Below, in pieces: positions 16,588-19,560 of a stretch of 29,871 nt of DNA. This DNA comes from a virus: positions 1 to 29,871 of the IMG/VR virus record IMGVR_UViG_3300027985_000271, one strand, 5' to 3'. The translations under genes and the position numbers were made by a program. The notes below the pieces were generated by a model. That model was not told the DNA's origin. It made no database searches and was given only the letters and a program-made list of their open reading frames with translations. Position 1 is the first letter of the stretch, and each line of letters starts with the position of its first letter.

Positions 16588-18642
16588 ATGGCTAATACCA
16601 GAATTTTAAACAGGTCATTCGCCGGGGGCGAGATATCGCCAGAAATGTTTGGCCGCATCGATGATGTGAAATTCGCCACTGGCGTCGCGCTGATGCGCAA
16701 TTTCATCGCGCTACCCCATGGCCCTGCTGCCAACCGCCCCGGATTCCAGTTTGTGCGCGAGGTTAAGGACTCCACCAAGAAGGTGCGCTTGATTCCTTTC
16801 ACGTTTAGCGCGTCGCAAACCTTCATCATCGAAATGGGCCCCGGTTATTTCCGGTTTCACACCCAGGGCGGAACTGTGATGAATGGGGCTGTGCCTTATG
16901 AAGTGGCGACGCCATACTTTGAAGCAGATCTTTTCGATATCCATTATGTGCAATCGGCGGATGTTGTCACGTTGGTACATCCCAACTATCCGCCAAAAGA
17001 ACTGCGGCGATTGGGGGCTACCAATTGGACCTTGGTAGATATCAGCTTTGCCGCGACCATATCCCCGCCTGATAGCGTCGGCGTGGCGGCGGCCAACGTC
17101 CCTAGCGGCAGTCTCTACGATTATTCGTACGTAGTCACCACGGTAGTGGATAACCCGCCGCAGGAATCGGTTAAGTCCACCACGGTAAGTATCCAGAACA
17201 ATCTGTTTACCACAGGAGCCATTAACCGAGTTACATGGGACGCCGTAGCTGGCGCTTCGCGGTATAACGTTTATAAGTATAGCGGGGGGTTATTTGGGTA
17301 TATCGGGCAGACAGATACCCTGCAGTTTGTCGACGATAATATCGCGGCGGACGTAAGCAAAACTCCGCCGATTTACGACACGACGCTCGGGTCTGCGTCC
17401 AACTATCCGGCGGCGGTGAGCTATTTCGAGCAGCGCCGTTGTTTTGGGGGCACGATAAATCGGCCGCAAAATCTGTGGATGACGAAATCAGGCACCGAAA
17501 GCGATCTGTCATATTCTCTGCCGACGCAGGCCGACGACCGCATATCCGTGCGCGTTGCCTCTCGCGAAGTCAACACCATCCGGCACTTGGTACCGCTTGG
17601 CAGCTTGATCGCGCTCACCGAGTCCGCAGAATGGCGGGTTACGTCCGGCAATGCGGATGCCATTACCCCGACCAGCATCAGCGTGCGGCCTCAGTCATAC
17701 ATCGGGGCAAACAATGCGCAACCGCTGCTGGTGAATAACAATATTCTGTATGCCGCAGCGCGCGGGGGCCACGTCCGAGAAATGGCATATAACGACAGCG
17801 CTGGCGGGTACATAACCGGGGATTTGTCGCTGCGGTCACCACATCTGTTTGACAACCTCAACATCACCGATATGGCCTACGCCAAGGCGCCGCAACCGGT
17901 GTGCTGGTTCACGTCCACCAGCGGCAAGTTACTTGGGTTTACCTACGTGCCAGAGCAGCAGGTCGGAGCGTGGCACCAGCACGACACGTTTAGCGGCGTG
18001 TTTGAATCATGCGCCGTGGTTGCGGAGGGCAACGAGGATGTGCTTTATGTTTTAGTGCGGCGCAACCTAGGGGGCCAAACAAAGCGCTACGTAGAGCGCA
18101 TGGCTTCCCGCCAATTCCTGAACCAGAGCAACGCATTTTTTGTAGATAGCGGCTTGACGTATTCCGGCGCTCCTGTTTCCACCATATCGGGGCTGGGGCA
18201 CTTGGAAGGGCAGATCCTGAATATCCTTGCTGACGGCGCAGTGCACCCGCCGCGTCAGGTTGTAGGCGGTAGTATCACGCTAGACGAGCCCGCCGGTATC
18301 GTCCATGCGGGACTACCCATTGTGGCGGATATTGAAACGCTGCCGGTAGCCGCAGGCGTCGATAGCGGGTACGCGCAGGGCCGCGCGAAGAATGTCAACA
18401 AGGTGTGGCTGCGCGTATATCGCAGTTCAGGGATTTTTGTCGGGCCTTCAGTAGACCACTTGACCGAGGCCAAGCAGCGCACGATAGAGGACTATGGCCG
18501 GCCGCCGGCGCTCAAGAGCGATGAGCTCGAGATAATGCTAACTCCGACATGGGGCCAGAGCGGACAGGTATTCGTGCGACAGGCGGATCCATTACCCCTC
18601 ACGCTGGTATCGATGACCATGGAAGTCGCGCTAGGCGCATAA
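16588..18642 (+). CDS. Tail nozzle protein (tail tubular protein B-like)
   Basis: A 684-residue protein starting with TRILNRSFAGGEISPEMFGR, GVALMRNFIALPHGPAANRPG and RLIPFTFS, the typical start of BPP-1-like nozzle or stabiliser proteins that replace T7 gp12 functionally. It is beta-rich throughout, with FEQRRCFGGT, a WRVTSG segment, a central WHQHDT and a TPTWGQSGQVFVRQADPLPLTL end. Six copies would form the tail tip below the adaptor. Its stop codon overlaps the T tract of a minus-strand terminator. Confidence 0.87.
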   Translation: MANTRILNRSFAGGEISPEMFGRIDDVKFATGVALMRNFIALPHGPAANRPGFQFVREVKDSTKKVRLIPFTFSASQTFIIEMGPGYFRFHTQGGTVMNGAVPYEVATPYFEADLFDIHYVQSADVVTLVHPNYPPKELRRLGATNWTLVDISFAATISPPDSVGVAAANVPSGSLYDYSYVVTTVVDNPPQESVKSTTVSIQNNLFTTGAINRVTWDAVAGASRYNVYKYSGGLFGYIGQTDTLQFVDDNIAADVSKTPPIYDTTLGSASNYPAAVSYFEQRRCFGGTINRPQNLWMTKSGTESDLSYSLPTQADDRISVRVASREVNTIRHLVPLGSLIALTESAEWRVTSGNADAITPTSISVRPQSYIGANNAQPLLVNNNILYAAARGGHVREMAYNDSAGGYITGDLSLRSPHLFDNLNITDMAYAKAPQPVCWFTSTSGKLLGFTYVPEQQVGAWHQHDTFSGVFESCAVVAEGNEDVLYVLVRRNLGGQTKRYVERMASRQFLNQSNAFFVDSGLTYSGAPVSTISGLGHLEGQILNILADGAVHPPRQVVGGSITLDEPAGIVHAGLPIVADIETLPVAAGVDSGYAQGRAKNVNKVWLRVYRSSGIFVGPSVDHLTEAKQRTIEDYGRPPALKSDELEIMLTPTWGQSGQVFVRQADPLPLTLVSMTMEVALGA

Positions 18643-18666
18643 AAAGAAGGCCCCGAGTAGGGGCCT
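18641..18666 (-). terminator. Minus-strand intrinsic terminator
   Basis: Read on the minus strand, AGGCCCC (18666-18660) pairs with GGGGCCT (18654-18648) around TACTC and is followed by TCTTTTT (18647-18641). On the plus strand no T tract follows, so the element is oriented to end minus-strand transcription. Confidence 0.75.
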
Positions 18667-18798
18667 AAACGTTGGGGCAACACTGAGCAAAGTAACGCGG
18701 GAATAAGTCGTGGCGAAGCTGAATCTATTCGGAATAGGCCCACTCAGCTAGGCCCTTGCAGCACCACCGCTCAAAAGCGGCTATGATTCCTTATTAAC

Positions 18799-18969
18799 CA
18801 CAACTGCGGATTGCTTTCGGCGGGGGTACTACGCGCCAAACGATTGCATCTCTCCGGCTAGGTTCGCGACCCTACACCGTACCCCTGCTCTCGCTTCTTA
18901 CTGACCGTTTGCCCGTTGCGCTACGGCGAATCAGTGGCTGTACGCCCCCCGAAAGCAATCCCAGTTGTG
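18799..18969 (-). repeat. Large stem-loop domain 1 with conserved closing stem
   Basis: CACAACTG (18799-18806) pairs with CAGTTGTG (18962-18969). A bulged C18807 follows. GGATTGCTTTCGG pairs with 18949-18961, then GGGG and GTAC pair with 18945-18948 and 18940-18943 after single bulges. The stem totals about 29 bp. The outer 15 pairs and the bulge position are the same as in domain 2. Confidence 0.8.
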
Positions 18970-19044
18970 TGCTCCTTGTTTCGCTAGGAGCAACAGCGCC
19001 ACATCTATCTTTTTTGAGTTGTGTTGAAGTGCGGGCCGAACTTT

Positions 19045-19164
19045 CACAACTGTGGATTGCACTGCCTCTTTGCGCTATTGCGTAGCCTCTAGCGATTATA
19101 GCCGGCCGCAACATATGCGACAGCCATATCCATTCGAAGTTGTACCAATGCAATCCCAGTTGTG
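19045..19164 (-). repeat. Large stem-loop domain 2 with the same closing stem
   Basis: CACAACTG (19045-19052) pairs with CAGTTGTG (19157-19164). T19053 is bulged. GGATTGC (19054-19060) pairs with GCAATCC (19150-19156), followed by A-T, one mismatch and two pairs. The loop sequences of domains 1 and 2 are unrelated by eye, so only the closing stem is shared. Confidence 0.8.
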
Positions 19165-19220
19165 CTATCAGCCACGCTTCCCAGCGTTGCCAATAACTGG
19201 CCGTCTGTTCCGGCTGCCAA
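19089..19220 (-). CDS. Possible 43-aa ORF behind an extended Shine-Dalgarno, low confidence
   Basis: On the minus strand a TTG at 19220 opens 43 codons ending in TAG. The product is mildly hydrophobic (GQLLATLGSV, MDMAVAYVAAGY). Ten bases upstream of it lies AGGAGG inside AGGAGGTGATC (19236-19226), an 11-base perfect complement to the 3' end of 16S rRNA. The frame overlaps the 3' arm of domain 2, so either the peptide or the RNA structure, not both at once, would be used. No homology recognised. Confidence 0.25.
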   Translation of the reverse strand: MAAGTDGQLLATLGSVADSTTGIALVQLRMDMAVAYVAAGYNR

Positions 19221-19391
19221 GATAAGATCACCTCCTATCTGCCCTTGTCGGGGGAATTTGTTGTGGCGGCCGGAGCTGATCCCGGTATACGTGTTTCACT
19301 CTTCTTCCGGCGATTCGCCGTGTAGACCAGAAGTGTGCGACGATGGACTGGTCGCCATTGCGCATCAGCCTGCGCGTTCACCACAAGGCAA

Positions 19392-19420
19392 ACTGTAGCG
19401 GAGTCATTTCGCGATTGCAA
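19392..19420 (-). promoter_or_regulatory. Minus-strand sigma70-like promoter
   Basis: On the minus strand TTGCAA (19420-19415) and TACAGT (19397-19392) are 17 bp apart, each matching the consensus at 4 of 6 positions. The predicted start is near 19385, just upstream of the first stem-loops and just past the end of the 45-aa gene. Confidence 0.45.
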
Positions 19421-19422
19421 TA

Positions 19423-19560
19423 TTATTTTTTATCTTTTCGCTTTTTCTCTCGGCGCGCCACGTCGAGCGCGATGGCGATGGCCTGCTTGCTGGGGTAGCC
19501 TTCCTTTTCGAGTTTGGCGATATTATGGCCGACGTTTTTCTTTCCTTTGGCTAATGGCAT
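19423..19560 (-). CDS. 45-aa basic phage protein on the minus strand
   Basis: A 45-codon ORF, the only convincing minus-strand gene in the window. The product starts MPLAKGKKNVGHNIAKLEKEG and continues YPSKQAIAIALDVARREK, ending in a Lys-rich tail. The wording K-G-K ... NIxKLxKEGYPxKQAxAIAL is familiar from small DUF6496-like phage proteins. AGAGGA lies about 8 nt before its ATG. The function is unknown; the basic helix could bind nucleic acid, for instance the structured RNA encoded directly downstream on the same strand. Confidence 0.75.
   Translation of the reverse strand: MPLAKGKKNVGHNIAKLEKEGYPSKQAIAIALDVARREKKRKDKK

Follow-up and report, generated by a model that had tools for sequence, protein, structure and literature searches.

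A widespread modular phage RNA with a kissing-loop core and exchangeable arms

The viral DNA analysed here is IMG/VR record IMGVR_UViG_3300027985_000271, positions 1 to 29,871, and this whole stretch of 29,871 nucleotides (nt) is referred to as the window. On its minus strand, at 18641-19397, lies a structured RNA of about 740 nt that has a promoter-like pair of its own and ends at a clear terminator. The original prediction, made from the sequence of the window, had placed a large structured minus-strand RNA at 18641-19420, and both coordinates and strand proved right: the folding energy of the minus strand is -303.7 kcal/mol (z = -6.4 relative to dinucleotide shuffles), and its homologues covary. 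The plus strand also folds well against such shuffles (z = -5.4), as is expected where inverted repeats are present, and covariation in homologues is a stronger proof of structure than folding z-scores. The gap was further held to contain no convincing gene. Indeed, the open reading frames (ORFs) of 18641-19420 have neither a Pfam match nor a significant PHROG match on either strand, and a protein-coding reading was rejected on these grounds.

The transcription signals are those originally described. The promoter-like sequence TTGCAATCGCGAAATGACTCCGCTACAGT (TTGCAA-17-TACAGT, hence 17-bp spacing) spans 19420-19392 on the minus strand, with a predicted RNA start at about 19386. A sigma-70 scan of the window, for which this pair is too weak, did not pick it up. 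The pattern TTGCAANCGCGAAAT + N8 + TACANT, in which TACANT stands 17 bases after TTGCAA, lies upstream of the RNA in the window and in five other loci (L130, L023, L047, L227 and L244), at distances to the core domain of the RNA, domain A, of 15 to about 600 nt across the six; four of these have a longer conserved promoter region in common and so do not count as independent. The intrinsic terminator AGGCCCCTACTCGGGGCCT-TCTTTTT occupies 18666-18641 on the minus strand, and its T tract overlaps the stop codon TAA of the nozzle gene at 18640-18642. Across the family, 69 of 184 copies of domain A have a terminator in the 200 nt that follow; the opposite strand gives 28, and an upstream control gives 8 of 165. 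A GNRA-type loop, GC-GAGA-GC, is present at about 18886-18893 and reads as GNRA on the minus strand only, likewise as predicted.

Domain A (19260-19387, minus strand) is matched by model R1 at 19391-19259 with 59.5 bits (E = 3.8e-13). In the window it comprises a closing helix P1, a P2 hairpin GCGCA[GGCUGA]UGCGC, a variable insert and a P3 hairpin, and loop 2 (GCUGA) is predicted by complementarity to kiss loop 3 (UCAGC). Alignment A1, with 60 sequences of domain A, provides the covariation. P1 varies in sequence, its outer positions covarying among G-C, U-A and A-U; P2 is GCGCA/UGCGC; and P3 is GCCGG/CCGGC, with the compensated variants GCUGG/CCAGC, GUAGG/CCUAC and GCCUG/CAGGC. Specifically, 94.3% of the cells in A1 are paired, compared with 26-51% when the partners are slid, and double changes number 68 against 22 in shuffled data. 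The invariance of columns 9-27 was partly built in by the search pattern and is not counted as evidence. Because that pattern also fixed loop 2, loop 2 variants were sought separately. In two loci (L299 and L300) loops 2 and 3 read GCCGA/UCGGC and in a third (L296) GUUGA/UCAAC, instead of GCUGA/UCAGC, and these are compensatory changes in the kissing interaction. The copies in phage P1 carry a P2 of GCACA/UGUGC, and their closing helix is GUUGUGAUG/CAUCACAAC in different copies; these are further double changes. Versions that consist of A only, about 110-150 nt long, also exist.

The remainder of the minus-strand RNA is composed of further domains. Domain E (19165-19257), found in Aeromonas-type RNAs, is a hairpin with AGGAGGUGAUC in its loop followed by other hairpins, and is conserved in L130, L003, L001 and other E-domain loci. 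By the fold, the window has two arm modules of the form CACAACUGGGAUUGC.../...GCAAUCC(A/G)CAGUUGUG: in B1 (19045-19164) the helix CACAACUGGGAUUGCAUUG/CAGUGCAAUCCACAGUUGUG closes a variable arm, and in B2 (18799-18969) the same is done by the long helix CACAACUGGGAUUGCUUUCGG/CCGAAAGCAAUCCGCAGUUGUG, which is also matched as an inverted repeat. In most phages a long B helix stands directly 5' of A and carries an arm of about 20 to 190 nt. This helix covaries family-wide: with the 5' strand picked by its outer motif and the pairing not looked at, the inner ten pairs show 90.1% pairing and 59 double changes against 15 in shuffled data, and 8 of the 10 pairs have changed on both sides. Domain C (18707-18804) has a GUUGUGG...CCACGAC helix and an internal pseudoknot in which GGAAU/AUUCC crosses AGCUGA/UCAGCU, and its first 6 nt overlap the B2 helix. 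It shows blastn homology to ST4 and 62AhydR11PP, and across six sequences of Aeromonas-type RNAs the closing helix and the two crossing helices covary. Broken stems or a coding replacement in homologues had been named beforehand as what would speak against an RNA. What was found are homologous intergenic regions in which A, B and C each covary, an outcome in favour of the RNA.

Two features of the B modules recur across loci. Family-wide, the GUUGUG strand at the B-A junction is complementary both to an upstream CACAAC, which closes B, and to a downstream CCACAAC, which closes A, and this may allow alternative pairing, coaxial sharing or pairing between molecules. In addition, the arm sequence ATGGGGCTTGGCTTAAATGCA, or one close to it, recurs in the B inserts of L079, L094, L014, L107 and phage P1.

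Comparison with related phages indicates how the RNA came to its site. The window phage is a BPP-1-like podovirus, with 67% identity between its nozzle-type tail protein and the BPP-1 counterpart. In BPP-1, about 12 bp separate the tail (nozzle) gene from the gp14-like gene, and Limnohabitans phage DC33 and Caulobacter phage SR18 likewise have no room for the RNA. Promoter, RNA and terminator are therefore an insertion and not a leader of the late operon, and the inserted unit faces genes of the opposite strand. By the same comparison, the RNA forms an inserted cassette that probably includes the gene for a 45-amino-acid basic protein 5' of it (19423-19560, minus strand; PHROG 2423, function unknown, E = 2e-15), the membership of this gene being the uncertain part. 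Its 3' end is conserved with the RNA, and the 5' flank is identical, in a close relative of the window phage (L130). Because this gene sits just upstream, the minus strand near the RNA is not otherwise empty.

The same relative carries the same cassette at the same site and reveals how the RNA changes. Specifically, the two phages are identical over about 53 nt from the promoter into the P1 helix of A, and near-identical in domain E and at the 3' end, whereas their B modules, like the inserts in A and C, are unrelated; the window has two B modules and the relative one. The scaffolds are conserved and the arms are swapped wholesale. As a side observation, the record of phage DC33 (L329, PQ492659.1) is filed under Inoviridae, yet has a 39-kb genome and a tail gene 65% identical to that of the window podovirus, and this classification looks wrong.

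The RNA is far from confined to this podovirus. Searches with blastn returned unannotated intergenic homologues in three unrelated Aeromonas phages. A 22-nt core derived from the Aeromonas homologues (TGGTGAAYGCGCAGGCTGATGC, RNA strand) matches at least 120 stretches of IMG/VR exactly, and the same core pattern matches 58 stretches of GTDB species genomes, mostly of gamma- and betaproteobacteria, with single matches in metagenome-assembled genomes elsewhere. Both scans were made by exact motif, with gene contexts from naive ORF calling, so the breadth is a lower bound and the core may look more invariant than it is. Among 398 genomes from across the phylum, model R1 found a copy in 6, which fits a prophage element. 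One version of domain A occurs in 162 phage records from Klebsiella, Escherichia, Salmonella, Cronobacter and Erwinia, among them a P1 isolate, mEp460, BASEL phages Bas77-80 and Taipeivirus. One arm type is found in 840 of 5,426 complete E. coli genomes. A longer query, 600 bases of prophage locus L119 that contain the RNA, matches 2,016 of them, with no annotated feature among the E. coli matches listed.

A possible new class had been suggested from the outset, and the database searches agree with it. The Rfam 15 scan of the window RNA gave no match at the gathering threshold and chance-level matches only at E-values up to 10, so that none of the families originally proposed for comparison (GOLLD, ROOL, OLE and HEARO) was matched. 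At the gathering threshold, more than 40 homologous loci contained, near the RNA, only transfer RNAs (tRNAs) and unrelated neighbouring families. Sub-threshold matches to anti-hemB and 'Betaproteobacteria toxic sRNA' were rejected as terminators at the 3' end of the RNA. The window RNA region has no match in the plasmid collection. Neither the core motif sequences nor any description was found in the open-access literature, although an earlier account in a subscription journal is possible. Among published E. coli prophage RNAs, the Pas sRNAs (PMC13192938) were compared by description, and this comparison gave no match.

Taken together, there is very little doubt that these loci represent a real, covarying, widespread and apparently undescribed class of modular structured phage RNA. 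It spans a P1 isolate, lambdoid prophages, Ackermannviridae and podoviruses and is apparently missing from Rfam and from RefSeq annotation; novelty is held at the level of the RNA class, on the basis of Rfam 15 and the open-access literature. In the P1 isolate (L140, OP279344.1, 2285-3218, minus strand), about 930 nt between tRNA-Thr and tciA are made up of several A-type domains together with four B modules. At 2802-2975 of that record, an annotated 'hypothetical protein' overlaps this B-A array and is probably spurious; mEp460, Bas77-80 and Klebsiella phage 6991 likewise have small ORFs annotated over the RNA. Its presence in P1 and in Bas77-80 makes the function of the RNA accessible to tests in laboratory E. 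coli.

The family also has a connection with tRNA. A tRNA gene lies within 300 nt of A in 23 of 295 copies, 22 of them on the same strand, compared with a mean of 3.9 and a maximum of 10 for random positions. At a Massilia locus (L145), the Rfam tRNA model matches the B module with 65.7 bits, and this module continues without a break into domain A. The model also matches at the B position, fused to A, in L299 (51.2 bits), L095 (48.4 bits) and L109 (41.7 bits), and a tRNA piece inside the A insert of L060 scores 34.2 bits. The B1 and B2 modules of the window are unmatched by this model. T-arm motifs (a 5-bp stem with a TTCRANN loop) are present in 18 of 169 B inserts. Shuffles give 0.02, random places within the same loci 0.35, and the antisense strand none. 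Most of the motifs directly precede the 3' strand of the helix, as they do in tRNA. In phage P1, the B + A array directly follows tRNA-Asn and tRNA-Thr and has a T-arm in its first B arm. Separately, anticodon-arm-like hairpins (GGG-loop, CAT-CCC; initiator-tRNA-like) were observed in the P1 array, L024, L066, L116, L122 and the L008 group, 15 in sense against 1 in antisense. Mimicry of the initiator-tRNA anticodon arm was dropped as main evidence, as some of these are real tRNA-Met genes and independent occurrences are few.

The computational evidence thus shows an autonomous phage-borne gene for a modular structured RNA whose core, domain A, is a junction locked by the kissing loop. Around it are arranged the B arm modules, each a long helix with a variable arm, to which Aeromonas phages add the pseudoknot domain C and the hairpin domain E. 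In the proposed mechanism, this RNA would act in trans, stable and expressed like a phage tRNA, with a rigid scaffold presenting several tRNA-like or other bait arms. Most probably it would decoy or occupy host factors that work on tRNA or on structured RNA, tRNA-targeting defence nucleases and tRNA-processing enzymes being examples, and arm swapping would alter which host factor is engaged. The insertion of the whole unit opposite to its neighbouring genes counts in favour of autonomy and of action in trans, and the arm swapping and the tRNA link also speak for the model. For the class and this trans-acting decoy mechanism jointly, we estimate a probability of roughly 0.4; trans action, stability and decoy function are read from sequence, and confidence in the mechanism itself is modest to low. 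A more specific version, in which the kissing-loop scaffold and its exchangeable tRNA-like and other bait arms form an anti-defence RNA class in an arms race with tRNA-acting host nucleases, is less probable still.

Several observations weigh against this model. Most B arms, both window arms included, have no recognisable tRNA feature, and the tRNA pieces could be captures from neighbouring tRNA genes into insert-tolerant loops. Three loci (L293, L294 and L295) carry an uncompensated loop change that breaks the kissing loop, and the interaction is therefore not universal. In L130 the A core is divergent and lacks the GCGCAGGCUGAUGC motif, with P1 kept. Finally, in some lambdoid phages A stands alone, within the leader of a gene for an N-like antiterminator, and for these copies a role in cis is suggested.

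Such a role may be extended to the whole family. Domain A, with or without B, would then act on its own transcript or polymerase and thereby allow expression of the tRNA, lysis or early genes that follow, whether by put-like antitermination, RNase III processing or leader stabilisation. We regard this as rather unlikely, with evidence on both sides. Several prophages (L016, L098, L175, L164 and L166) have a bare A domain in the leader of a gene for a small basic protein; both such proteins tested match N-type antiterminators (Pfam N_peptide, PHROG 271), and a third, from L058, has no such match. In L016, A sits at the place of the lambda N-leader hairpin GGCTTTGGGGTGTG/CACACCACCAAAGC, and the surrounding stem is that of lambda's N leader. 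The RNA also fills the gap before the leftward early genes in mEp460-type prophages, as an early leftward leader. In phiEt88 and ES2 it is flanked by an annotated antitermination gene on one side and by lysis genes or a tRNA on the other. In 54 of 76 loci, the closest large ORF downstream shares the strand of the RNA. These leader and lysis sites are also where lambdoid phages carry tRNAs and other stable RNAs, so the contexts are consistent with a cis element and with a trans-acting RNA gene alike. However, the unit of the window, L130, IME207 and swi2 points towards structural genes of the opposite strand, with little or only tRNA-Met downstream on its own strand; a terminator often directly follows the RNA; and arm swapping would be unexpected for a fixed polymerase-binding element.

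Other alternatives place the function in assembly or base pairing. A self-assembling ornate RNA, that is a GOLLD- or ROOL-like homo-oligomer or cage with the variable arms as linkers, either internal or displayed, enclosing or organising tRNAs or ribosomal particles, seems unlikely. The two-way GUUGUG pairing and a closing helix common to several modules would permit intermolecular domain swapping, and the resemblance to GOLLD and ROOL first proposed holds for the setting, namely phages, nearby tRNA genes and variable regions sometimes with tRNA (PMC12286853). It does not hold for the covariance models of either family, which match neither the window nor the more than 40 homologous loci at the gathering threshold, nor the window at E-values up to 10, and the A-only versions also speak against it. 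A base-pairing regulator or ribosome-binding RNA would use exposed loops on host RNAs, for instance AGGAGGUGAUC on the 3' end of 16S ribosomal RNA (rRNA), holding 30S subunits. The hairpin loop in question (19227-19237, minus strand) is an 11-nt perfect complement of that end, and the match reaches 14 nt in phiWae15 (L003) and 12 nt in L133 and L137. The loop is nevertheless limited to Aeromonas-type RNAs and interrupted in L001, L134 and L136, which leaves the idea improbable. As a family-wide function, targeting of the 16S anti-Shine-Dalgarno sequence was rejected, the tail matches being hardly above the antisense control. The original suggestion of an antisense regulator of the plus-strand late genes has in its favour that the RNA is encoded opposite to the late operon, but it is very improbable: the RNA ends at a terminator that merely touches the nozzle stop codon and is therefore not antisense to its neighbours unless that terminator is read through, and homologues adjoin unrelated genes. 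The tRNA-A fusions and wholesale arm swaps pose a concrete question that is open to testing: what do phages show the host on these arms?

The RNA can be compared with several known systems. The put RNA of HK022, of about 70 nt with two stem-loops, acts in cis on RNA polymerase (PMC9378689). It is a structured untranslated RNA of early lambdoid leaders, and some A copies take an equivalent leader position, but the present RNA, compared with put by description, is modular, larger and usually outside such a leader; that of the window, with about 740 nt and at least four domains, lies in a late-gene gap and not directly 3' of an early promoter. With tRNA (RF00005) and transfer-messenger RNA, the family shares B modules that score as tRNA (L145, L095, L109 and L299) and T-arms that recur beside the closing helix. 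In contrast to tRNA, the acceptor stem of B is extended and runs into domain A without a CCA end, anticodon arms are often degenerate, and most B arms are not tRNA-like. GOLLD, too, is large and structured and occurs in phages and prophages, frequently close to tRNA genes; it combines a conserved region with a variable one in which a tRNA can lie (PMC12286853). The present family has the same location (23 of 295 A copies near tRNA genes against 3.9 at random), but it is built of repeated, permutable modules with a kissing-loop domain and also exists in much smaller versions. ROOL, in turn, is phage-borne, found near tRNA islands and multi-domain with pseudoknots, its function unknown (PMC12286853); the RNA described here has another sequence and structure, and its arms are swapped between near-identical phages.

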